Shown here: one piece after another, positions 38,750 through 64,000 of the stretch
How the letters are laid out: each line of letters starts with the position of its first letter
Position numbering within the stretch: position 1 is the first letter of the stretch
DNA from: Aquimarina acroporae
GTDB lineage: Bacteria > Bacteroidota > Bacteroidia > Flavobacteriales > Flavobacteriaceae
Assembly (NCBI RefSeq): GCF_023195925.1
Contig: NZ_JALPRE010000001.1
Coordinates: forward strand, 62,001 to 126,000
Length of the DNA: 64,000 nucleotides
Direction: 5' to 3'
Notes under the pieces: generated by a model
The model's input: the letters and a program-made list of their open reading frames with translations, nothing else
What the model was told of the DNA's origin: nothing
Database searches by the model: none
Program-made: the position numbers and the translations under genes

Positions 38750-41700
38750 TTAATCTCCATTAAATGCAAATCTAATAATGAATGGATGATGATGTTTAAA
38801 ATGAGTTATACTGTGTGCAAGTGTTCCTTCTTTGTGAGATAAGACATCTTTTAACTCTTTACTCAATTCTATTTCATCATCCTTCAATTCACTGTTGTTT
38901 TCAAAATATCCTGATAACGTTTTTCTTGCCGAATAATGCTCCATAAATGTTTCAAAAGAATCATATAACTTTTTGAACTTTCCAATAGGTATCGCCAACA
39001 ATAACAGTACGGCCATAATTTCACTGCGATTATTTTCATCTTTATAGGTAAAATCTTCATGAGCTTTTACAATTCTATAGATATTAACGAATCGCTTTAT
39101 TGCCCTAGGACTTGTTCCTATTACATCTGACATTTCTTGTAGAAGTTCTATTTCTAATTCTGAAAGACGTAAAGACTCGATAGTTTCTTTTGTTTCGATA
39201 ATTTCGACTTCTTTAGGCTCCTCTTCTTTATTTTGTTCTTCGTCGATACTCTTTGGGTCAGTTTTTGGTGTATTTTTACCCGAAGAACTGTTTCCTTTTG
39301 TATTCGCGTTTGAAGTGATGTCGTCTGATGAGAGGGTTGATTCTTCTATAGGGATTTCTTCAAGTTCAGATTTTGTTTGAGCCAAGGTTTTAAGCATGTA
39401 TTTTACACTTTCGTCTTCTGCTGATTTAAGATTAAAAGGGACTTGAAAAATCTTTTCTAAATAACTTGCCGGATCGATCATTTCCATATCTGTAGTCTGC
39501 TTGCTGGCCACAAATTGCATTTGATGCTTCTTGATCAGAGCATTTTTGATCCATCTGGGATCTACGCCAACCACCACTACAAATAGAGGATAGGCCATGA
39601 GTAAATTTACCGCTTCAAGTACCTCAACTACACGTTCTTCGGGACAACGATCTAAATCATCGATATAAAGAATAATGCGTTCTAGGGGTCGGCTAAATTT
39701 ATCTCTAAAACTTTGTGTATCTTCATTATTTGTGAGGTTCTTTAGTTCCTCATGATGATCGGTAAAGAGATTACTTAAAATTTCAAAATCCTTACGTATA
39801 ATGGAAATTAACCCTAGGTGTTTTTCATATTCTTTGCTAGATGAACGTTTTTCAATAAAGGCGTGCAATGCTTCGGTAGATAATGTATTATTCAGCCTAA
39901 ATTCAATTTCGGCTTTTTGTTCTGTAGTTTGATGAATTTGATGGTTGATATCAATAATTTCAACTTTGAGCTGTTCTATCTCAAGAGTAAGCGCCTTTTC
40001 CCTTTGTTGATTTTGAAACAGAGCATCTTCTTTTTGAAGTTCATAGTCTTCTTTTATTTTCCAAAAAGATGCTACCAAAGGCTGTAATTGCTTATATGTT
40101 TTTATTCCTCTGGTGTAGAAAGTACCAGCAATAGTTAACACATACCATATATTGTTTGGGAATTCAAAATTAGTCCATTGCACGGTATTGGCTATGTAAT
40201 TTAATAAAGGTGGTACTGCTAATACAATAGCTAATATAGCAATGACAAATATGAGATTACTTTTCCATTTGCCAGCTTTAAAAAATACTTTTAAAAAAGT
40301 AAGTATAGATGTAGTTTGATTATGCAATTCTTCTGGAGTTTTCCAATATTCTTTAGGTACAATTTCAGAAAACTGCTCTTTGTTTTTGATGATTGTTAAA
40401 TTGGTAGTGATTGCATTTTCTACTGTATCCTGTACTTTAAATTTCTTATCGACATTCTCAAGTACTTCAATAATACTGGTCTTTTTTATTTCGCGAATTT
40501 TATTCTTTAAACGTTGTTCAAAAGTGGTTCTTTCGTTTTTCAGACTATCTAATTGCGCATCGATTACATCTTTTTTACGTTCTAACTCTTCTAATTCTGT
40601 ATTGGTGATGTTTAATTCATGAGTTAGTACCTTTTCAATTTCCTGTTTATAAATATCACTAGCAGAATAATCTTGAATATATTGATTGAGTCCATCAAAG
40701 ATTTTGGTTATAATTCCTGCCCATAGATTCGCATCCATATAGGACCACGCATTAAAATGTACATGAGCTATTCCTTCACAAAAGCCTTTTTCGGGGTTGT
40801 TTTCAGATAGTAAATGAATACGCTGTTTCAGTTTTCTCATAAAAAAACTCTTACCCGATCCCCATTTACCAAAAAGTGCAATAGCTAGAGGAGGAGTAAA
40901 ACTTTTTGCTGCTATAACCCGTGCAAATGCAGATACATCTTTGTTGATGTTAAGATGATCTGTGCCAGAATCTGCATCACTTACTAACCCAGCTAGGGTG
41001 GTGATCTTAGTAACCGTAGTGATGGTTTTCTTGTTTTTTGAAACAGTAATGAGATTGTTTAATATACCAGAATCGATATGACTTAGAATGGTTTCTGTAT
41101 CAGCTAGTGTAGGTTTAATTATTGCACCTCTGTAGGTGCCAAGGTTTTCTATATGAATGTCCAAATCGCTAATAACCCAGTCAACCTTGAGTTCTGAACC
41201 ATTTTGAGGGTTGTGACTTACAATTCCAAATCCTTTTATTTTTAAGTAAGCTATTCGATCTTTACCGTAAGTTGATTTTAAAATTAAAATATCTCCAGGT
41301 TCTATTTCATTTATGATATCTACATATGTTTTTTCTTTTAATCCTTGTTGCCATTTGTTTTGATCAATAAAGTTTGAAGTTTGATCTTTTGTACCTCTTT
41401 CCCAATAAGAGCCTGCTAGATAAAATTTTCCTTTAAAATCTTTCAAAAATCTATTTACCGCAATCGATTTTCCTTTTCTATCTGTTGATTTTTGAGATTT
41501 TACATTCTTAGATTGTTGTTTTTTTGCGGGAGCTTTTGGTGTACTGCTTTCAACATTAGAATTAATTTCTTCAAATGTCTTACGTCCTCTATGACTGTCG
41601 GGTACGGAGATAATAAAATGAGTGTTCATCTCTGAAAAATCTGATGAAAACCCTTCAATCATAAACCTAATGATACGTAAACTTGTAGGCATAGGAATTC

Positions 41701-42055
41701 CGGATTGCCCTGTTCCTAACAAAGGAATCCAAATAGTTTTTGAAGAAAGTTGATTGAGAAACTGTTTTACAGCATTTGTAAAATTTGTTCGTAATGAATT
41801 TTCACTAGTCTGTCCTGTGTTATAAGTAACTATAAATAGTATTGGTTTTTTACCCTTTTGTTCGAGCAAATCAAACCCTTTTTCTAAGCTTAGTGTTTTG
41901 AGTGCACTTTGATTATAGCCATATGCAGTAAGTACCGATAAATTGAGTTTACCAACATTGCCATAAATATCTACTGAGGCAATGGCCATGTCTGCTTCAT
42001 TAGGAGAAGCATTTAAAATTATTTCGTAAGGTAACTGTGATACCGGTTGTTGCAT
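38750..42055 (-). CDS. Large KAP-type P-loop NTPase with macro-like and PUA/EVE-like N-terminal regions
   Basis: 1101 residues. Region 1-165 looks like a macro-type or related nucleotide-binding domain (EIILNASPNEADMAIASVDI, IWIPLLGTGQSGIPMPTSLR). Then a Lys-rich linker, then 200-325 a PUA/EVE-like beta domain (KFYLAGSYWERGTKDQT, IEPGDILILKSTYGKD). From 390 a KAP NTPase: Walker A GKWGSGKS (396-403), two transmembrane helices inserted near 608 and 642, Walker B YIDDLDRCPEERVVEV (about 797), and a variable acidic region. KAP proteins are membrane-linked NTPases found in anti-phage systems. The domain combination suggests nucleotide or nucleic-acid sensing coupled to a membrane ATPase (inference). 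Single gene. Confidence 0.78.
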   Translation of the reverse strand: MQQPVSQLPYEIILNASPNEADMAIASVDIYGNVGKLNLSVLTAYGYNQSALKTLSLEKGFDLLEQKGKKPILFIVTYNTGQTSENSLRTNFTNAVKQFLNQLSSKTIWIPLLGTGQSGIPMPTSLRIIRFMIEGFSSDFSEMNTHFIISVPDSHRGRKTFEEINSNVESSTPKAPAKKQQSKNVKSQKSTDRKGKSIAVNRFLKDFKGKFYLAGSYWERGTKDQTSNFIDQNKWQQGLKEKTYVDIINEIEPGDILILKSTYGKDRIAYLKIKGFGIVSHNPQNGSELKVDWVISDLDIHIENLGTYRGAIIKPTLADTETILSHIDSGILNNLITVSKNKKTITTVTKITTLAGLVSDADSGTDHLNINKDVSAFARVIAAKSFTPPLAIALFGKWGSGKSFFMRKLKQRIHLLSENNPEKGFCEGIAHVHFNAWSYMDANLWAGIITKIFDGLNQYIQDYSASDIYKQEIEKVLTHELNITNTELEELERKKDVIDAQLDSLKNERTTFEQRLKNKIREIKKTSIIEVLENVDKKFKVQDTVENAITTNLTIIKNKEQFSEIVPKEYWKTPEELHNQTTSILTFLKVFFKAGKWKSNLIFVIAILAIVLAVPPLLNYIANTVQWTNFEFPNNIWYVLTIAGTFYTRGIKTYKQLQPLVASFWKIKEDYELQKEDALFQNQQREKALTLEIEQLKVEIIDINHQIHQTTEQKAEIEFRLNNTLSTEALHAFIEKRSSSKEYEKHLGLISIIRKDFEILSNLFTDHHEELKNLTNNEDTQSFRDKFSRPLERIILYIDDLDRCPEERVVEVLEAVNLLMAYPLFVVVVGVDPRWIKNALIKKHQMQFVASKQTTDMEMIDPASYLEKIFQVPFNLKSAEDESVKYMLKTLAQTKSELEEIPIEESTLSSDDITSNANTKGNSSSGKNTPKTDPKSIDEEQNKEEEPKEVEIIETKETIESLRLSELEIELLQEMSDVIGTSPRAIKRFVNIYRIVKAHEDFTYKDENNRSEIMAVLLLLAIPIGKFKKLYDSFETFMEHYSARKTLSGYFENNSELKDDEIELSKELKDVLSHKEGTLAHSITHFKHHHPFIIRFAFNGD

Positions 42056-53590: not shown

Positions 53591-55993
53591 ATGATTGTAA
53601 ATACTGAATTAGAGCATAAAGGAAATTTATTTCCAGGTAAAATAGCTTCCTTTTCTCAAGATGTAGATAAAATAAACTTCACCACCGAAAATGGAGTCAT
53701 TCTTCAGGTTACTATTTTAAGGGGTAGTGTTATTCGTTTTAGGTATGCTACCGACAACAATTTTGAAAATGATTTTTCTTATGCTATAAGTGAAGATGGG
53801 GCAAGGGGGTATAGCAAACTAGATGTAGAAGAACATGATGATCATTATGCTATTATTACCTCAAGAATAAAATTAACTATACATAAAGCAGATCTTAAAA
53901 CGGCTATTTATGACCTGGAGGGAAATGTAATTTGTAAAGATGATTGGGGATTTCATTGGGAGCAGAGCTATGAATATGGAGGAAATATTGTAAAAATGAG
54001 TAAATCTGCGCCTCAAGGTGAATGTTATTATGGTTTGGGTGACAAGCCAATGCATCTTAATCTTAAGGGAAAACGAATAGAAAACTGGGCAACAGACCAA
54101 TATGCTTTTGGGAAAGATCAGGATCCATTGTATAAAAGTGTACCTTTTTATACAGGATTGTATGAGGAAAGAGCTTATGGTATATTCTTCGATAATACAT
54201 TTAGGACGTTTTTCGATTTTTGTCAAGAACGACGTAACGTGACTAGTTTTTGGGCACAAGGAGGAGAAATGAATTACTATTTCTTCTATGGTCCTAATAT
54301 GCAAGATGTAATTACACGTTATACAGATCTTACAGGTAAACCAGAACTACCTCCATTATGGTCTTTGGGATATCACCAATGTAAATGGAGTTATTATCCT
54401 GAAAGTAAAGTAAAAGAAATCACCAATAAATTTAGAGAGCTAAAAATCCCATGTGATGCTATTTATCTAGATATAGATTATATGGAAGGTTTTAGATGTT
54501 TTACCTGGAGTAAAGAGTATTTTCCTGATCCGAAACGAATGGTAGCAGAACTTGCCGAAGACGGATATAAAACAGTAGTAATTATAGACCCAGGAATTAA
54601 GATTGATGATGACTATTGGGTGTATAAGGAGGCTATGGATAATGATTATTTCTGTAAACGAGCAGATGGTCCTTATATGAGAGGCAAAGTATGGCCAGGA
54701 GAATGTTATTTTCCAGATTTTACAAATCCAAAGGTAAGAGAATGGTGGTCTGGATTGTTTAAGGAGATTATTGATGAAATTGGAGTAAAAGGGGTGTGGA
54801 ATGATATGAATGAGCCAGCAGTTATGGAGGTTCCAGGAAAAACATTCCCTAATGATGTACGTCATAACTATGATGGTAACCCCTGTAGTCATAGAAAAGC
54901 ACATAATATCTATGGTACCCAAATGGCCAGGGCTACCTATGAAGGTGTGAAGAAGTTTGCCTATCCTAAACGACCTTTTATTATTACAAGATCAGCGTAC
55001 TCTGGAGCACAACGATATACATCATCATGGACCGGAGATAATGTTGCCACTTGGGAACATTTATGGATTGCCAATATCCAGGCTCAACGAATGAGTATGA
55101 GTGGTATGTCATTCACTGGTAGTGATATTGGTGGGTTCGCCGAGCATCCAACAGGTGAACTCTATGCAAGATGGATTCAATTGGGCGTATTTCACCCGTT
55201 TTGTCGTACGCACTCTTCTGGTGATCATGGTAACCAAGAACCATGGACATTTGGTGAAGAAGTAGTAGATGTCACTCGTAAATTTGTAGAATTACGTTAT
55301 CAACTACTGCCATACCTGTATACTATGTTCTGGGAGTATGCAGAGCAAGGTATTCCTATGCTAAAACCTTTGGTGTTGTTTGATCAGCTTGATCCTCAAA
55401 CACATTATAGGACTGATGAGTTTATTTTCGGAAACCAGATTTTAGTGTGCCCGGTACAAGAACCAAATTCCAAAGGTAGACGTATGTATATTCCAAGAGG
55501 TAACTGGTACAATTACTGGACAAGAGAATATGTAAAAGGAGGTATGGAACAATGGGTAGATGCAGATCTTGATATTATTCCTCTATTTGTAAAGGAAGGA
55601 GCCATAATCCCTAAATATCCTGTACAACAATATGTTGGAGAAAAAACAATAGATCAACTTTGTTTAGAGGTATACTACAAATTAGGAAACAAAGAAGTTT
55701 CTAAGGTGTATGAAGATGCTCAGGATGGTTATGATTATATGAAAGGAAGATTCAGTTTACGAAGTTTTTCATTTACTGGTAAAGAGAATGAAGTTATCAT
55801 ACAACAACATAAAGATGGTACGTTTGTAACTGAATATGAAACTATCAAAATTGATTTTATAGGCCTTCCTTTTACCATAAAAGAAGTAGAAATAGACAAT
55901 GTTGTGGTATCTCTAGATAGTATTAACTATGATAAAGAAAACGGAAGTATGGTAATCCCGAAAGGATTTACCGAGCTTCATGTCACTGCTTAA
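53591..55993 (+). CDS. GH31 alpha-glucosidase
   Basis: 800 residues, typical of GH31. The nucleophile Asp is in KGVWNDMNEPAVME, the acid/base Asp in SWTGDNVATWEHL; PLWSLGYHQCKWSYYPE, YLDIDYMEGFRCFTW and RTHSSGDHGNQEPWTF are family stretches. No signal peptide, so cytosolic. It likely hydrolyses alpha-1,4 or alpha-1,6 glucosides released from glycogen or maltodextrins. It lies 160 bases after glgB, so it could share or have its own promoter. Overlaps the convergent ATPase gene by 11 bases. Confidence 0.93.
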   Translation: MIVNTELEHKGNLFPGKIASFSQDVDKINFTTENGVILQVTILRGSVIRFRYATDNNFENDFSYAISEDGARGYSKLDVEEHDDHYAIITSRIKLTIHKADLKTAIYDLEGNVICKDDWGFHWEQSYEYGGNIVKMSKSAPQGECYYGLGDKPMHLNLKGKRIENWATDQYAFGKDQDPLYKSVPFYTGLYEERAYGIFFDNTFRTFFDFCQERRNVTSFWAQGGEMNYYFFYGPNMQDVITRYTDLTGKPELPPLWSLGYHQCKWSYYPESKVKEITNKFRELKIPCDAIYLDIDYMEGFRCFTWSKEYFPDPKRMVAELAEDGYKTVVIIDPGIKIDDDYWVYKEAMDNDYFCKRADGPYMRGKVWPGECYFPDFTNPKVREWWSGLFKEIIDEIGVKGVWNDMNEPAVMEVPGKTFPNDVRHNYDGNPCSHRKAHNIYGTQMARATYEGVKKFAYPKRPFIITRSAYSGAQRYTSSWTGDNVATWEHLWIANIQAQRMSMSGMSFTGSDIGGFAEHPTGELYARWIQLGVFHPFCRTHSSGDHGNQEPWTFGEEVVDVTRKFVELRYQLLPYLYTMFWEYAEQGIPMLKPLVLFDQLDPQTHYRTDEFIFGNQILVCPVQEPNSKGRRMYIPRGNWYNYWTREYVKGGMEQWVDADLDIIPLFVKEGAIIPKYPVQQYVGEKTIDQLCLEVYYKLGNKEVSKVYEDAQDGYDYMKGRFSLRSFSFTGKENEVIIQQHKDGTFVTEYETIKIDFIGLPFTIKEVEIDNVVVSLDSINYDKENGSMVIPKGFTELHVTA

Positions 55994-58900
55994 AGAGTCT
56001 TGCAAACCATGTTACCACTTTGGTTAAATCACCTTTGTTGATTTGTTCAAGTTTGGTATTTAGGTTCATCGCTCTTTTTTCTAATTGATCTTCTATATAT
56101 CCATAATCTTTCGTTTTTTCCATAGGGTTTATAGCTTCTATGTCTTTTTGTAATCTAGTATCTGTGGTAATATTCCATAATTTTATGGTGTTATCTTCGC
56201 TACTGGTTATAATGAAATTCTCATCGCTATCTACAAAAGATACATTTATGAGTGGCTTTTCATGTGCAATAAATTGCTTGATAAGTACATTACTTTCGTT
56301 AAATAAATTAGCTCCATTATCTCGGCTTCCTATGAGCATATTTCCTTTTGGATCCAGAGCAATGGTTTTTAATTCTTTGTCGTGTACCCAATGTTCATGA
56401 ATATTTTCATTGTCGTACAAATCGAATACCATAATTTTCCCTTGTAAGCCAACAAACAATCTGTCGGTATTTTCATCAATACTAAATGTACTTACCTTGA
56501 AATGCTCTATTTGTCGACGTCTTTTCTTTGAAGGTTGATGTGTTTTTTGTAAATAATGATTAAACACGTTGGTCTTTATATTAGTGCTATCATTTGTATA
56601 AAAGTGATTGTTTTTATCCAAAACAAGGTAGTCTTTGTGAGCAACTGTTTTTATCTTTTCAATAACCCCTGGTAATGAAGTTTCCAATTGTAATTCATAT
56701 TGTCCAGACCAAATATCAATGATAACCTTATATAGTTTTTTGTCAATACTGAAAAGAAAAGAAGCTCCACTAAGGTGCTCAATTTGTATTATTTCTCCTT
56801 TGCTAATAGATTCACCTTTTAAAACAAAAACTTCATTCGCAAGATGATCCATCAGCTGAAGTTTTATTTCTCCGGTATCAGAATGTTTACTTAATACAAG
56901 AGTTCTTAAATAGGTGTCGTTTGGGGTAAGAGTAAAAGGTTCAAAAGCCAATATGTTGTCTTCTTTGTAGCGATTGATAATAGCACCATTCTTTTCTCTA
57001 TAAGACAAAGTAAATACACTAAAACTATTATTTTTACTTAAAGTGAAAATGTATAGAGAATCGTCTACTCTTCGAGTTTTGGTAGTTTTAAGTTCGAATC
57101 CTTCTTCTAGAGCAATGCTGTTATGATAAAAAGGAGTGCTAAGGAATTCTTTGTAAAGGTTATTTTTGAAATTATTGACTAGGGTGTTTTCCTGATCTTG
57201 AATAATTTTTGTCTTAAGAGTAGAATCTGCAAGTAATACATAGTTAAACGATTTGGTCTTGTCGTATCGATTTATTTCTATAGCATGTCCGAGCAACTCA
57301 GCAGTTTCATTTTCTTTCTCAGAATCCCATAATAATATAGATAAGATTCCTGAAGTGAGAGCAAGACAAGTAATGGCCAAAGAATAGAAAATTATCTTTT
57401 TTCTTCTTCTTTTAAAGCGCAGACGTTCTCTTTCTTCCTTTAAACTTTCCTTTTTACTCTCTTCAAAAAAAAGTTTTTTTCGTTGCAACCGTTCTTTGTC
57501 TTCATCTATCATGATAAAATCCATATACGGTTTCATACGTTCTATTTGTTGCGTAGAGAGTAACGTGGTTTTATCCTGTCCGCCTTCATCAAATAAGCTA
57601 AAGGAAGATACAAAATCATCTTTGATGAGCTGCTTATAATCATCTTCAGTAGAGTGGAAGTTACTTATTACTTTTGCAATAATATCATGACTCAGTTCAG
57701 CATATTCTTTTTCGGTATTCTGATCGGTATTGAGTTTTAAGATACCTTTGTCGCTTAGTTCTTCAATAATTTCTGAAAGGGTGTCGTTATAAGCTTCTTC
57801 ATTTACCTCACCCCAGATATGATTTTGAATTTTATGTGCAACGGTGGTATCGCTTATGATGTAGTAGTTATCGTTTTGAATGGTTAAAGGAATTCTCTTT
57901 TTAAGATCATCCTTGGTTTTGAAGTGTTTTAAAAACTTTATAACACAATCTTTATGCTCGCTATAATTATTAAGTTTGTTATTAGGGTTTTGTATTATGG
58001 TGTTGTTGATTTCCTTAATATATTCTTGCAATACTTTTTCAATAGTTCCAAAATCTTTGATTTCATTCTCTTCGAGTTCTAAGGGTAAATATTCTCTTGT
58101 TGAAGATTTTTCTTGTCTCCCATAGGTGTTATAATAATCGATCTTGTATAACCGATCTAAGTACACTTGAAGGAAAGGAAAATGATATGATTCGGTTTCA
58201 TTTTCCTGAATTTTAACCTTATCTAGGATATATTCTATGCGCTTGTCTTGAACTTCGCTAGGTATTACATCTTTAGTTTTATCGGCGACCTGGTTTATGT
58301 TAAATTCTACAAATGATTTTTTTATGATCTGTTTTACGGTAGATCTATCAGGATGAGTAAGTCTTAGTTTTTTATAGAATATCTGTGGCACATAGGATTG
58401 TAGTTGGTCTAAATACCCAAAATACTCTTCACGCAATGATATAATGATATTGAAAGGTACTTTATGATCAAAAACGAGTTTTAAAAATAACCCCAGACGA
58501 TCAATTTCTTGAGGGCTCCCATACACGAACAGTTCTTCAAACTGATCAAAAATAACAAGAGGAGCACTATTGTTAGCTCCTTTTTGGATGCAAGTGTTTA
58601 TTAAATGGGTGTATAAGCTTTTAGAAGTTTTATCAATTTTTAAATGAATCTCCTTTAATTCAAAAAGTTGATTTTTTCTTTGATCGGCATAATGACCTAA
58701 GCGTTCCTTTAATTTTGAAATTAGTGTCGAGGTATCTAGGGTTTCTGTTTGTTGGTATGTAGTGGTATCTTGTGCTATGAAGGAAGTTTTTCTTTTTTTC
58801 TGTTTAATACCTATAATATCATCTTCAATTTCCAGAATTAGTCTTTCTGTTTCTGAGATATCGATTAAAATTTTATTTAGCTCTGAATGAAACGAAAAGA

Positions 58901-59213
58901 AATTATCTAACAATTGTGCTCCGATGTTTTCTTCATTACGTCCAAAAATCTTATGTTTTATCGATGTAATCAGATTTTGATTACGTCGAATGCTAATGAC
59001 TCTTTTTTCTTTTTTAATTCTGTTTAGTAATCCACAATAAATCAGACTGGTTTTTCCAGATCCCGAAGGACCATGTAAAATCATGATTGTGGAGTCTTTA
59101 TAGAGCTCATAAAGACTTGAAGTCTCTTTGTCTCTTCCAAAATAGGTGTTTACATCATCTTTTTTGTAAGAATCCAGAAACTTGAAGGGAGATGTTATTG
59201 TTCTATGTGGCAT
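55983..59213 (-). CDS. nSTAND-type ATPase with WD40-like repeats, membrane-anchored
   Basis: 1076 residues. N-terminal P-loop of the STAND class: Walker A GPSGSGKTS (48-56) in MILHGPSGSGKTSLIYCGLL, Walker B LVIFDQFEELFVYGS (about 220), followed by helical arms. One transmembrane helix (FYSLAITCLALTSGILSILLW, about 610-630), then a C-terminal beta-propeller-like half with WD-type repeats (LINVSFVDSDENFIITSSED and NTIKLWNI, about 990-1020). The propeller is predicted on the far side of the membrane or lining it. Probable sensor/scaffold that activates the CHAT protease encoded one base upstream. Last gene of the operon. Confidence 0.82.
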   Translation of the reverse strand: MPHRTITSPFKFLDSYKKDDVNTYFGRDKETSSLYELYKDSTIMILHGPSGSGKTSLIYCGLLNRIKKEKRVISIRRNQNLITSIKHKIFGRNEENIGAQLLDNFFSFHSELNKILIDISETERLILEIEDDIIGIKQKKRKTSFIAQDTTTYQQTETLDTSTLISKLKERLGHYADQRKNQLFELKEIHLKIDKTSKSLYTHLINTCIQKGANNSAPLVIFDQFEELFVYGSPQEIDRLGLFLKLVFDHKVPFNIIISLREEYFGYLDQLQSYVPQIFYKKLRLTHPDRSTVKQIIKKSFVEFNINQVADKTKDVIPSEVQDKRIEYILDKVKIQENETESYHFPFLQVYLDRLYKIDYYNTYGRQEKSSTREYLPLELEENEIKDFGTIEKVLQEYIKEINNTIIQNPNNKLNNYSEHKDCVIKFLKHFKTKDDLKKRIPLTIQNDNYYIISDTTVAHKIQNHIWGEVNEEAYNDTLSEIIEELSDKGILKLNTDQNTEKEYAELSHDIIAKVISNFHSTEDDYKQLIKDDFVSSFSLFDEGGQDKTTLLSTQQIERMKPYMDFIMIDEDKERLQRKKLFFEESKKESLKEERERLRFKRRRKKIIFYSLAITCLALTSGILSILLWDSEKENETAELLGHAIEINRYDKTKSFNYVLLADSTLKTKIIQDQENTLVNNFKNNLYKEFLSTPFYHNSIALEEGFELKTTKTRRVDDSLYIFTLSKNNSFSVFTLSYREKNGAIINRYKEDNILAFEPFTLTPNDTYLRTLVLSKHSDTGEIKLQLMDHLANEVFVLKGESISKGEIIQIEHLSGASFLFSIDKKLYKVIIDIWSGQYELQLETSLPGVIEKIKTVAHKDYLVLDKNNHFYTNDSTNIKTNVFNHYLQKTHQPSKKRRRQIEHFKVSTFSIDENTDRLFVGLQGKIMVFDLYDNENIHEHWVHDKELKTIALDPKGNMLIGSRDNGANLFNESNVLIKQFIAHEKPLINVSFVDSDENFIITSSEDNTIKLWNITTDTRLQKDIEAINPMEKTKDYGYIEDQLEKRAMNLNTKLEQINKGDLTKVVTWFARLFKQ

Positions 59214-59214
59214 A

Positions 59215-61002
59215 CTATGAGCTGGCGATTAAGTTTTTGATATACCCAAAATGATCTCGTATTTTCTTTTTTTCCTCAATCTGAATGATATTCTCTTTAC
59301 CATCTTTGTAAAGTGCCCAAATCATAGATTCCTCTAAAGGAACTTCTATTTCTTCACCAAGGTCTTTTTGAACACCGTTGTTTTGTCTGTACACTTTGGC
59401 ATTTACGACTTCTTTGTAGATAAGTTTTTCTGTAGCTTCAGAGTATCGATCTAAATAATATAGTTTGATTTTATCTTTTGCCACAGAGGTAGAGTTTACA
59501 TCGAGATAAAAAGGGGATAGGTTCAATTCTCTTTTTAAAGCGCCATTGTCGTTGGCTACAGTACATAGATATACCGAGTGAATATCAATGTCAAAACCTG
59601 GCTCATTGTCATTAATATTATAAACAACACTCTTTTGTTCGTCTAAAGCTATGGGTCTGTTTGAAACAGGATAATATGATCTATTAATCACATAAGATCG
59701 CTGCTCGTTATATCGAAATTGATTATAAAAAACATCATATATAGATTCTATACCAAGCGATCTTAAAAATTTGAATTTTCGTATAAATTCATGAAGATAA
59801 AGTTCAGTTCGCATATAGTCATGCACATCGATATCGTTATTTTCATGAGCAGAGAAAAAATCTGATATTTCTTTAAAGATATTTCGATGTTCCAAAACAC
59901 AATGCTTTAAATCAATCCATAGTTCGTTTTTTGTTATATAATCATCTGGTATATTGGAGTAGATAAATGCAAGATCTTCAGAAATTTTATCTTGTACATG
60001 CGATTCCCATGCGATCTCAAGGTTTTCTCTTAATATTTCCTTGAGTTGGTTACTTAATTTAATGGTGAATTCATTACCGTGCTCTTTAGATATGGACCAG
60101 ATGATAGAGTACGCCGAAAATTTCAAAAAATTTAAAAACTCTTTAAACAAACTCCTGATTACCCAATATCGTTCTTTACTAAGTTCTTGATAAACACTGT
60201 TATTGATATCGTTGAATTCAGATAAAATTTCTAAATGAATACATAAGAAATAAGGGTAGTATTTATATAAATCTTCGGTTAACTTTTCATTTTCTTTAAT
60301 TTCATTGACCAATTCCTTGAATTTACTTTTCAAAGGATAATTACCAGGATTAGAATTATAGGTTACTCTTTGATCAAAATTAGCCGCTGTATCCTTATTG
60401 ATTTTAATAATATAGTTGTTCGTTTTTTTAGTAAGTTCTTCCAAAGACATAACACCTCGTTCTGTATCATCTGGGTCCTCAAAATATCCTTCAAAAAACC
60501 CTATGGTTTGATGATATATGCTTTTAATGAAATCACTATTGGTTAAGTTTTCTTTATTGGCTAATAATAAATTGTATAGTCTAACAGAAAATTGCTGTGC
60601 AAATGAATCGTACACGGGTGTTTTGGTACCAATTACAATGGGTACGTTATGTAGGGCATCGACTATTTCACCAGTAGAACACCCATTAATAAAAACCATT
60701 TTTAATTTGGGAGAAGCGTTTAAGATCTTTATAAGTCCTTGGTTGCGAAATATATCATCACTCAGTTTTAGCGTCTGCGCTTTGTCATTATGGTGTCCAC
60801 TAAAATGAAATATGGTCATTTCATTGGTGAGTTTTTCTAAGTTACCCATAAACCCCTTGATTCCAGCATCTTTAAGTAAAGGAGCATTAAAAGTATCGAT
60901 ATGGTTCAGGAAAAGATCGTTGATTTTATCACGTTCCTGATCCAAATAGTTTAGTGGATTATCTTGGTCATTTTCAAATATTCCTACAAATATCTCCTTC
61001 AT
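59215..61002 (-). CDS. CHAT-domain (caspase-like) protease
   Basis: 595 residues. N-terminal caspase-like fold with the catalytic dyad: His70 in MTIFHFSGHHNDKAQ and Cys108 in MVFINGCSTGEIVDAL, each at the end of a predicted strand; IVIGTKTPVYDSFAQQFSVRLY follows as in CHAT peptidases. The ~420-residue C-terminal part is helical and then beta-rich, unlike known domains to my eye, and may receive the signal from the nSTAND protein. Starts 20 bases after the gasdermin-like gene; 1 base before the ATPase gene. Likely activates the gasdermin by cleavage (inference from known systems). Confidence 0.82.
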   Translation of the reverse strand: MKEIFVGIFENDQDNPLNYLDQERDKINDLFLNHIDTFNAPLLKDAGIKGFMGNLEKLTNEMTIFHFSGHHNDKAQTLKLSDDIFRNQGLIKILNASPKLKMVFINGCSTGEIVDALHNVPIVIGTKTPVYDSFAQQFSVRLYNLLLANKENLTNSDFIKSIYHQTIGFFEGYFEDPDDTERGVMSLEELTKKTNNYIIKINKDTAANFDQRVTYNSNPGNYPLKSKFKELVNEIKENEKLTEDLYKYYPYFLCIHLEILSEFNDINNSVYQELSKERYWVIRSLFKEFLNFLKFSAYSIIWSISKEHGNEFTIKLSNQLKEILRENLEIAWESHVQDKISEDLAFIYSNIPDDYITKNELWIDLKHCVLEHRNIFKEISDFFSAHENNDIDVHDYMRTELYLHEFIRKFKFLRSLGIESIYDVFYNQFRYNEQRSYVINRSYYPVSNRPIALDEQKSVVYNINDNEPGFDIDIHSVYLCTVANDNGALKRELNLSPFYLDVNSTSVAKDKIKLYYLDRYSEATEKLIYKEVVNAKVYRQNNGVQKDLGEEIEVPLEESMIWALYKDGKENIIQIEEKKKIRDHFGYIKNLIASS

Positions 61003-61022: not shown

Positions 61023-61853
61023 CTAAAATTCAATTAATAAAGGATTTGCCTGATTTTCATCCAATAATAGTTTTGGAATTGTTACAACTGGCAAAGTATC
61101 GACAGGTCCAGCCGCGGCAGCTCTTATATTATCTAACCATTCACCTCTTGAAAACTTACCGGTTATAGAATCAATGGTAATTTCTACACATGTAAATGCA
61201 TAAGTTAGAGCAGTATCCCCAGTAAATTTCACCTCGTTTTCTGAGACTTTTTCTATAGATAATTTGGTGTCTATATTGGAAAGGTATTCCTGTATAAGTG
61301 GGATGTTAATCTCTGCTCCAGTCGTATTATCTTTATAAGTTGCTAATGAGAAATCTGTGCTAGTAAGCACATCTGTGATTAATGCCAGTTTTACATTTTT
61401 TTTGTGTATGATGTCTTCTATAAACATGTTGTCTGGATCCCCTTTTATATCATTAGAAACTAAAATATGACCTAGTTCTAGTGGGTCTATGTATTTACGT
61501 ATTACATTTCCGAAAGAAAAAGACATTTTCGAAGAACCTTTTACTGAAGCTCCAATAACCGCGGGGTCAAGACCAAGAGCTTTGATGAAGTTCCCCAAAA
61601 TATCAAATCCTATCTTGAAGTCTATTTTTTTTGTTTTTACATTAGACACTTCTGCGACAGGTGAAGTATGAATGGTAATTACATGCTTAAAACCATCTTT
61701 AACCAAAAACTTAAATTCTCCCAAGTATTTTGGTTTATGATCATTTATTTCCAGCATGCACATAGGCTGAATTCTCGCTTCGGGTATCTTAAGAGGGTTC
61801 GCATCAAACAAATCTCTTATCTCATCGGTAATCTTGTTTTTACAAATTCTCAT
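61023..61853 (-). CDS. Probable bacterial gasdermin (bGSDM)
   Basis: 276 residues, the usual bGSDM size. I recognise the family by pattern: KIPEARIQPMCMLEINDH, KYLGEFKFLV, then KIGFDILGNFIKALGLDPAV, KMSFSFGNVIRKYIDPLELG, LALITDVLTSTDFSLATYKD and ALTYAFTCVEITID. Cys4 (MRIC) matches the N-terminal Cys that is palmitoylated in characterised bGSDMs. A small-residue linker (IRAAAAGPVDTLP, about 243-255) separates the core from a ~20-residue tail ending LLIEF, the right place for an inhibitory tail and cleavage site. It overlaps the SGNH gene by ATGA and is followed by the CHAT protease. No database check was possible. Confidence 0.7.
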   Translation of the reverse strand: MRICKNKITDEIRDLFDANPLKIPEARIQPMCMLEINDHKPKYLGEFKFLVKDGFKHVITIHTSPVAEVSNVKTKKIDFKIGFDILGNFIKALGLDPAVIGASVKGSSKMSFSFGNVIRKYIDPLELGHILVSNDIKGDPDNMFIEDIIHKKNVKLALITDVLTSTDFSLATYKDNTTGAEINIPLIQEYLSNIDTKLSIEKVSENEVKFTGDTALTYAFTCVEITIDSITGKFSRGEWLDNIRAAAAGPVDTLPVVTIPKLLLDENQANPLLIEF

Positions 61854-64000
61854 GTTGTATATTCTAATTGATTAATAGCATTTAAAAATTTAGTTCCAAT
61901 TTTGGCAAACCCCTCATCATTAGGATGAATCTCATCATACCATTCGTTATTGTTTACCAAAGTTCTCATATCCAAATATGTAGTGTTTTTATGTTGAGAG
62001 GCTACAGACTGAAGAAGTTCATTGAAATTATTTATTAAAAGTCGAATTACATTGGTTCTATCTTCTATAGCTGTAATTCCTTTTTCAATTAAATACCTAT
62101 TAACCCAACCGTTTTTTATGAGTTTTTCATTGATATCTGCTCTTACATAGTCATAACCATGAATAAACACTTGTTTTACCCATGTGAATTCATGTATTCG
62201 ATTAAAGAAGTAATTGTAGGTACCACGAATTTCATCCATTTTCTTATCATAGGTATCGTTAAGGTATTCAGCTGGAGCAAGTCCAGAAGGCAAATCGCTT
62301 TTAAGAATATCAACGATAGCAGGGCCTATAATATCATTACCGCCGCCACTTATTAGTACGTACTTTGGTTTTTCTTTTTGAATTTCTTTAATAAGTTGAC
62401 CACTTTTTCTATAATTCTGTATTTCATCTCCAGCTGCCGCAATACTCCGCAATGGATAATGTTCCATTACATAATCCAAAGTGTCTTTTACTAAGAATGG
62501 AAACATAAACCAAGAATCTCCTTCTGCAACGACAACAGGTAATTCGGGAAATAATTTCTTCGCTTTTTTAAACCTTCGGTACCTTCGTTTATCTTCTAAA
62601 TGGTTTCCAATTCTGATTTTGAGATTGTCAATGCCTTTTTCGCTTTCCGTAGTAATCAATAATTCATTTTTTATTTGTGTATTGGTGATGAATCCGGTTT
62701 CAGTTGGAATCATATATAAAGCTCTCATAAAAGGAGCAAGAATGTCATGATTAACATACCAATTCCAGTTTTGCTTTAATTTTGGAGTTATTTGATTAAC
62801 ATTAGGATTATGCAAATGTAAAGTGCTGGTATAGATATCCCATTTTCCTTCTTCAGGTAATAAATCTGATAAAGCAGTATGCCCCATCATATTCCCTAAG
62901 TGAGAAATAGGAGGGGTTAATGCAGATTGATTCATATCGGGTAACGACGAGGTAATATCATCCTGCATTGTAACTATAAATTTGTAATATACCCAATCAT
63001 ATTTCCAGTTGTAAATTTCTTTGTAACTGTCAAAAGACCAACCAGAATAGGGTAGTGTTTGATGTTCATAAAACAACACTTCATGTCCCGGTTGTAGTTC
63101 TTTAGTGCTATGATCAAAAGGAGCAGAAGATATGCTTATATCAGAGCTTAATAAGAGAACAGAGACAAACAACTTTTGTTGTGAGGTATTTGTGACTTTG
63201 CATTGATATTTCTGAAAATGCTCTCCATTCTTTGTTAGTTGATTTGGTAAAACGGAAAGATCATGCTGTAGACTGGTAATGTCTTTCCATTTGCCTTTGT
63301 CATCGATTCGTATTTCGACTTTTATAGGTGTTTGATGGAATGGGTTATCAGGGTTTTCTAACGTATGATAATGGTTCCATTTGATTAGCTTTTGAAGCTG
63401 ATAGTTCAATCGTTTTGTAATATCTTCATCTGTATTGTCTATAAGGTCAATTTGAGTAGCTATAGGCTGATAAACAGCGTTTGGTAAACTGAGATAGAGT
63501 GTTTGATTAAAAATAACAATGAAGAATGATGCGGTTTGAGAGTCTACCAGTTGTATTGCAGAATTTTTATAGAGTACATCATTAATTTGTTTTTCGATAA
63601 CCAGATCGTTATCCAAATTATAAATATATAGGTCTAAAATTGAATGGGTGTTCTCAGAAATAACAGGGTATGCCTTTTTAAAATTAAGTGAAACGCCCAT
63701 TTCAAAAGGGTCTTGAATCAATGAATCCTCAAGATTCACTTTTGTAACCTTCGCTATGAATTCGGTGCTATCACTTTCTGAGGGTATCTGTACTTTGGTC
63801 CCAATTTTTACACCATGTATTAGACCTTTGTTATAATACCATCCCTTTTTAGTATTATACATGATTTGTCCTCTTTCCTGTAGCATTTCAGCCCCATAAA
63901 GACTTAACCATCCATCGTAGTGGCTTAATTTACCGTTTCCTTGCAATGAGAGGGTAGGCGTTTGTTTTTTCTGAGTTATATTTTTAAGACTAATTCTACT
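61850..64000 (-). CDS. SGNH-hydrolase-domain protein, first visible gene of the gasdermin operon (5' end cut by window)
   Basis: The frame runs open to the right edge, so the start is outside; the TTG at 63946 is not a convincing start. About 715 visible residues. The N-terminal ~470 are beta-rich with no known domain (PISHLGNMMGHTALSDLLPEE). The C-terminal SGNH/GDSL hydrolase has block I VVVAEGDSWFMFPF (Ser), block III ISGGGNDIIG (Asn) and block V WYDEIHPNDEGFAKIG (Asp and His), a full catalytic set. It could be an esterase, lipase or acyl hydrolase. Stop overlaps the gasdermin start (ATGA), so the two are co-translated. Its role in the system is unknown. Confidence 0.8.
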   Translation of the reverse strand, partial: SRISLKNITQKKQTPTLSLQGNGKLSHYDGWLSLYGAEMLQERGQIMYNTKKGWYYNKGLIHGVKIGTKVQIPSESDSTEFIAKVTKVNLEDSLIQDPFEMGVSLNFKKAYPVISENTHSILDLYIYNLDNDLVIEKQINDVLYKNSAIQLVDSQTASFFIVIFNQTLYLSLPNAVYQPIATQIDLIDNTDEDITKRLNYQLQKLIKWNHYHTLENPDNPFHQTPIKVEIRIDDKGKWKDITSLQHDLSVLPNQLTKNGEHFQKYQCKVTNTSQQKLFVSVLLLSSDISISSAPFDHSTKELQPGHEVLFYEHQTLPYSGWSFDSYKEIYNWKYDWVYYKFIVTMQDDITSSLPDMNQSALTPPISHLGNMMGHTALSDLLPEEGKWDIYTSTLHLHNPNVNQITPKLKQNWNWYVNHDILAPFMRALYMIPTETGFITNTQIKNELLITTESEKGIDNLKIRIGNHLEDKRRYRRFKKAKKLFPELPVVVAEGDSWFMFPFLVKDTLDYVMEHYPLRSIAAAGDEIQNYRKSGQLIKEIQKEKPKYVLISGGGNDIIGPAIVDILKSDLPSGLAPAEYLNDTYDKKMDEIRGTYNYFFNRIHEFTWVKQVFIHGYDYVRADINEKLIKNGWVNRYLIEKGITAIEDRTNVIRLLINNFNELLQSVASQHKNTTYLDMRTLVNNNEWYDEIHPNDEGFAKIGTKFLNAINQLEYTT

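Follow-up and report, generated by a model that had tools for sequence, protein, structure and literature searches.

The window analyzed here, a stretch of 64,000 nucleotides (nt) from Aquimarina acroporae (GCF_023195925.1, NZ_JALPRE010000001.1, positions 62,001 to 126,000 of the forward strand), carries a bacterial gasdermin (bGSDM) gene in an operon of four genes, all encoded on the minus strand. The gasdermin gene (61023..61853, 276 amino acids (aa)) lies downstream of a gene for a caspase that is linked through a middle region to an SGNH hydrolase (61850..64000) and overlaps the gasdermin start by 4 nt. It is followed after 20 nt by the gene of a CHAT protease of the bGSDM-associated type (59215..61002, 595 aa) and, after a gap of 1 nt, by that of an nSTAND1 ATPase with a P-loop at residue 48 and C-terminal WD40 repeats (55983..59213, 1076 aa). 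Profile searches confirmed the families of all genes. A preliminary description of this DNA had seen a four-gene operon with gasdermin, CHAT protease and nSTAND ATPase on a single strand, with overlaps or tiny gaps and the gasdermin directly upstream of the CHAT gene, and this layout holds. It had also taken sensor, protease and pore former for the complete chain; the three members stand, but the chain was incomplete, as the SGNH-bearing partner also contains a protease, of the metacaspase-like caspase type. The gene of this partner is cut by the window edge and starts at window-equivalent position 64726, with the caspase domain almost wholly outside the window and so out of first view; in the operon's own locus in the genome, which extends beyond the window, the full gene encodes 958 aa (L009:7851-10727). 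Searching the locus with Rfam at gathering thresholds gave no match. A promoter pattern of the Bacteroidota type had a single match in L009, which lies within the gasdermin gene and is no more than chance would give; we thus claim no promoter.

The 276-residue protein is an authentic bacterial gasdermin, as the preliminary description had proposed. It matches NF051890 at 202.5 bits (cut-off 100) and the PADLOC bGSDM model at 7e-60, and the pore-forming fold is matched both by solved structures and by the predicted fold. A scan against Pfam-A as installed matched no family; the assignment stands despite this null result, because two other libraries, the solved structures and the fold agree. The Pfam-A result could be held to favor a wrong assignment or a decayed operon, an explanation which is next to inconceivable in view of this agreement and of four open frames with intact catalytic residues. 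Decay of the gasdermin was likewise considered and rejected. For conservation analysis, 78 full-length sequences were aligned, the query and 77 relatives (P0002-P0078, 255-300 aa), leaving out the near-identical P0001, the fragments P0079-P0081 and the distant P0082. Cys4 (codon 61842..61844, minus strand) is kept in 77 of the 78 gasdermins and likely corresponds to Cys3 of known bGSDMs, whose palmitoylation is described in PMC10989679 and PMC9079055.

The CHAT protease matches PDLC02988, a PADLOC model for bGSDM systems, over residues 1-594 (3.5e-45), whereas the Pfam CHAT family reached only 11.2 bits and stayed below its cut-off of 24. Its dyad, His70 and Cys108, is kept in all 24 aligned CHAT proteins. 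The ATPase matches PF20703 at 6.6e-23 together with WD40 repeats; ATPases of this nSTAND1-WD40 type are common among defence genes. Neither a CARD nor a trypsin-like protease was among the Pfam families listed (25 of 31 families in the case of the ATPase), and bacterial CARDs may escape Pfam.

In the caspase-SGNH protein, the caspase domain covers residues 4-261 (PF00656, 6.3e-26), and the PADLOC caspase model for bGSDM systems matches the first 330 residues (1.7e-37). The fold is that of a metacaspase-like Peptidase_C14 with its His-Cys dyad and aligns with metacaspase MCA2. Asp24, Ser79 and Asp137 are kept in 68 of 68 aligned proteins and Cys21 in 67 of 68; these residues correspond to the Arg/Lys pocket of MCA2, and cleavage after Arg or Lys is predicted. 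The SGNH/GDSL hydrolase domain (residues 731-958; 61850..62536, minus strand) has Ser738, Gly766, Asn797 and His934 invariant in all 68 proteins. Residues 761-944 match PF00657 at 26.1 bits (cut-off 23.6), with PF13472 just below its cut-off (31.5 versus 32.9 bits), and the fold matches EstL5, PAF acetylhydrolase and phospholipase A1. The domain alone, searched against PDB sequences, gave a best E-value of 0.69 and otherwise weaker ones, so that its identity is drawn from profile, invariant blocks and fold instead. The model of the whole protein has a predicted local distance difference test (pLDDT) score of 82.2; the VIA rows fall largely on the caspase, hence the fold of the middle region (residues 263-730) is barely tested.

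The gasdermin scan yielded 20 loci. Counting the own locus as well, 19 have a gasdermin at least 46% identical plus upstream DNA (two isolates contribute two loci each), and a caspase protein lies directly upstream of the gasdermin in every one of these close loci. The caspase alignment starts within the first 18 residues in all 19, which leaves no room for a fused amidase. CHAT and nSTAND genes follow the gasdermin in 15 of the 19 (L009, L017-L028, L033, L034). The remaining four (L029-L032) carry a different set there, as does L035, whose contig ends on the upstream side. This set has a CHAT-like protein and an AAA ATPase, joined by a 385-aa-type protein and a caspase-LRR protein on contigs that are long enough. 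The gasdermin of the last locus, L036, is 26% identical, and no caspase was seen in its 0.6 kb of upstream DNA. Both components are rare, since in a phylum sample of 395 genomes the gasdermin model matched three and a middle-SGNH query five. In two Aquimarina isolates the whole operon occurs twice, and the second copy (L033:2834-12182, L034:2964-12312) is diverged. In addition, 233-aa gasdermin-like proteins were found in other genomes of the order (L052:9462-10163, L053:9161-9862, L054:9564-10265), with no reference-type caspase, CHAT or STAND gene beside them in the fetched stretch.

The alignment also points to a candidate cleavage site. At position 244, 47 of the gasdermins have Arg and 31 have Lys, which makes it basic in 78 of 78, and Ser comes next in 58; Trp239 and Asp265 are invariant, and the tail end (around NPLLIEF) is conserved as well. 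Cleavage by the caspase is predicted to occur after Arg244 (codon 61122..61124, minus strand), at the start of the linker, because the invariant Lys/Arg fits the Arg/Lys pocket of metacaspases. Residues 245-276 (61026..61121, minus strand) would then be the inhibitory tail. In the divergent gasdermins L099 and L102, the motif NRVL with a following G aligns to the linker start, and its Leu is residue 247 in L102. This is the number of the cut mapped in Runella, also a Leu, according to a passage of PMC9079055, and the two genomes are therefore probably Runella; the Runella-type P1 Leu247 is aligned about two residues from Arg244. In the oligomer form, the gasdermin chain 8sl0 comprises 237 residues, of which residue 232 is aligned to 239 of the present protein, placing the end of 8sl0 near the predicted cut. 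Both Runella-type gasdermins directly adjoin an LRR-ROC-COR GTPase gene (L099:6943-9726, L102:983-3760). In Gelidibacter salicanalis, the gasdermin frame (L031:9995-10714) ends at about residue 239 and the tail-like part continues in a different frame, owing either to breakage of the gene or to a sequencing error.

The four genes probably form an inflammasome-like suicide system, likely answering phage infection. A phage cue would be sensed by the WD40 part or the ATPase, leading to assembly, and the assembled ATPase would activate the CHAT protease, which in turn would activate the metacaspase-like caspase. Cleavage of the gasdermin after Arg244 would remove the inhibitory tail of 32 residues, and the palmitoylated N-domain would form large inner-membrane pores. 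The SGNH domain borne by the caspase would add a second effector directed at envelope lipids or wall esters, to which the pore might give it access. By killing the infected cell, the system is predicted to stop phages.

In this scheme the CHAT protease may act as a relay and leave the cutting of the gasdermin to the caspase, because the latter is the constant upstream neighbor in the close loci and its pocket fits the cut site. Alternatively, the nSTAND protein would switch on CHAT, and CHAT itself would cut the gasdermin and free the SGNH enzyme, leaving the caspase-SGNH protein as a parallel effector or a substrate. A CHAT-type gene with intact dyad does lie directly downstream of the gasdermin in both operon kinds among the close loci, and the PADLOC CHAT model belongs to bGSDM systems. 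Moreover, a helix ahead of the SGNH domain (residues 699-725) is rich in basic residues, among them Arg715, which is invariant in 68 of 68 proteins, and might therefore be cut. The invariant Lys/Arg of the gasdermin, however, suits the metacaspase pocket, and at L096 and L097, two loci of another family, caspase-SGNH genes stand beside a gasdermin with no CHAT gene directly adjoining the pair (a CHAT-like gene of L097 is about 0.8 kb off, on the opposite strand). We therefore regard CHAT as the cutter as rather unlikely.

This second family was surveyed in 150 genomes and yielded 28 full-length caspase-SGNH genes in 21 genomes, leaving out a split copy in G450. A gasdermin adjoins the caspase-SGNH gene in three of the 28 loci (L096-L098; G459 carries its gasdermin on a different contig), a count made with a profile that was built from A1 and misses the Runella type, and with three loci on contigs below 10 kb. 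The PADLOC gasdermin model matched only ten of the 150 genomes, of which only G459, G462, G464 and G489 also carry a full-length caspase-SGNH gene. An N-terminal amidase is present in seven and a C-terminal CHAT in six of the 28 loci. A CHAT-nSTAND pair stands in line and on the same strand in four (L047, L098, L134, L135), and in L047, L134 and L135 this pair is followed by an amidase-caspase-SGNH gene (Pfam check on L047). No gasdermin was detected in the three genomes of these loci with a model that matched three other genomes of that genus. A gasdermin plus a fused amidase occurred together in none of the 28 loci, a count not distinguishable from chance alone; their mutual exclusion is thus only suggestive, the loci being related by descent and separate amidase genes not having been sought in the close loci. 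The simplest reading of L047, L134 and L135, where a sensor pair accompanies amidase-caspase-SGNH and gasdermin is undetected, would be that one hub serves alternative killers, either the separate gasdermin or the fused amidase. The caspase-SGNH proteins at L096:5100-10127 and L049:7087-12165 carry an MpaB/rubber-oxygenase-like domain and DUF5995 as fusions, and a histidine-kinase-type gene adjoins each.

Within the genus, the gasdermin is present in seven of 52 genomes. The operon is flanked here by genes for a glycoside hydrolase of family 31 (GH31) and an M48 peptidase, both families being confirmed. GH31 was matched in 49 of the 52 genomes, and 30 of those loci were surveyed: the M48 gene lies directly beyond GH31 in 23, leaving the site empty, an operon gene or its edge occupies it in six, and neither is found in one (L069). 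In G017, the seventh carrier, gasdermin and GH31 are about 5.5 kb apart on the same contig, and two operons are at other sites by their flanks (L024, on the downstream side, and L026). The operon thus has a patchy, cassette-like presence at one site. At L069 the site is filled by seven other frames; one frame of this cassette (L156:12204-19197) matches a PADLOC subtilase model at 6.7e-22. Among ten genes around the operon, only two gave notable PADLOC matches, a WYL regulator and, about 14 kb away, a QatA/PifA-like ATPase. The latter, a protein of 1101 aa (38750-42055 of the window), has partial matches to the QatA and PifA defence ATPases (best 1.2e-15).

Several observations weigh against the anti-phage suicide system as proposed. 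The SGNH part, present in 16 of the 19 close loci, is missing in L025, L026 and L030 and so is not essential. The packing of the tail on the N-domain is modeled with low confidence (pLDDT below 50 in residues 245-276), positions 233, 236 and 261 are also mostly basic and well conserved, and the predicted cut would release 32 residues, versus about 20 in bGSDMs as given in an excerpt of PMC9612521. In the second family, 25 of the 28 caspase-SGNH genes have no gasdermin beside them, so that this hub is not a gasdermin-only partner. An MpaB-like/DUF5995 partner is fused or near in 12 of the 28, and each of these 12 also has a gene resembling a 7TM histidine kinase; this is not a usual defence setting and leaves room for a non-defence use. 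Finally, the PADLOC scan of the ten neighboring genes gave no clear second defence system.

The same biochemistry could accordingly serve a lytic death other than an anti-phage one, such as kin recognition or developmental lysis. The histidine-kinase-like and oxygenase-like genes of these 12 loci, the glycoside hydrolase and M48 flanks and the absence of a clear second defence system among the ten neighbors scanned would fit such a role, whereas the patchy, cassette-like presence at one site and the frequency of nSTAND1-WD40 ATPases in defence genes do not favor it. Fungal gasdermins act in allorecognition, as stated in PMC10989679; a bGSDM operon of Lysobacter protects from phages according to PMC9079055. 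Overall, we consider a death unrelated to phages clearly improbable.

Bacterial gasdermin systems were reportedly described by Johnson et al. in 2022, and CARD-NLR gasdermin systems of Lysobacter reportedly by Wein et al. in 2025. The former are known from Runella, Vitiosangium, Bradyrhizobium and Lysobacter, and, as presented in PMC9079055, PMC10989679 and PMC9612521, they share with the operon a short gasdermin with N-terminal Cys, a short C-terminal tail and adjoining caspase-like or other proteases. In contrast to them, there are two caspase-superfamily proteases here, one SGNH-fused, plus an nSTAND1-WD40 ATPase, and the predicted cut residue is Arg instead of the Leu of Runella. With the CARD-NLR systems, as presented in PMC13236601, the operon has in common an NLR-like ATPase, proteases and a gasdermin; phospholipase effectors occur in some of their variants, and unlike in these systems a trypsin-like protease is not among the Pfam families listed here. 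An amidase-metacaspase-GDSL protein of Chitinophaga pinensis was termed "what seems a highly destructive weapon" in 2012 (PMC3501461). It has the same caspase-GDSL combination, whereas here a separate gasdermin gene takes the place of the amidase; gasdermins are not mentioned in the excerpted account. The loci L047, L134 and L135 share the CHAT and nSTAND pair, there directly upstream, and the caspase-SGNH core, and differ by the N-terminal murein amidase and the undetected gasdermin. A literature search of titles and abstract starts found no caspase-SGNH protein beside a gasdermin, and primary gasdermin papers may describe one. New here, though part may be in primary papers, are the constant caspase-SGNH partner of this gasdermin clade, a predicted cut residue with a matching protease, and an exchange of gasdermin for amidase behind sensor pairs of one kind.

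Tentatively, caspase-SGNH might be a modular execution chassis with interchangeable sensors (CHAT-nSTAND1 or CHAT-AAA-LRR-caspase) and killers (gasdermin or fused murein amidase), the gasdermin acting as holin and SGNH or amidase as endolysin of an inflammasome-controlled lysis. PMC9612521 had already drawn the comparison with holins and endolysins and noted that lysozymes, amidases and phospholipases occur close to bGSDM operons. The occurrence of the same kind of sensor pair and caspase-SGNH core, either with a gasdermin or with a fused wall-cutting amidase, is a natural experiment on the use of the gasdermin, which makes the holin-endolysin reading of bacterial gasdermins directly testable. 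Moreover, Arg244 is named as the likely cut site, with one specific protease as the candidate cutter.
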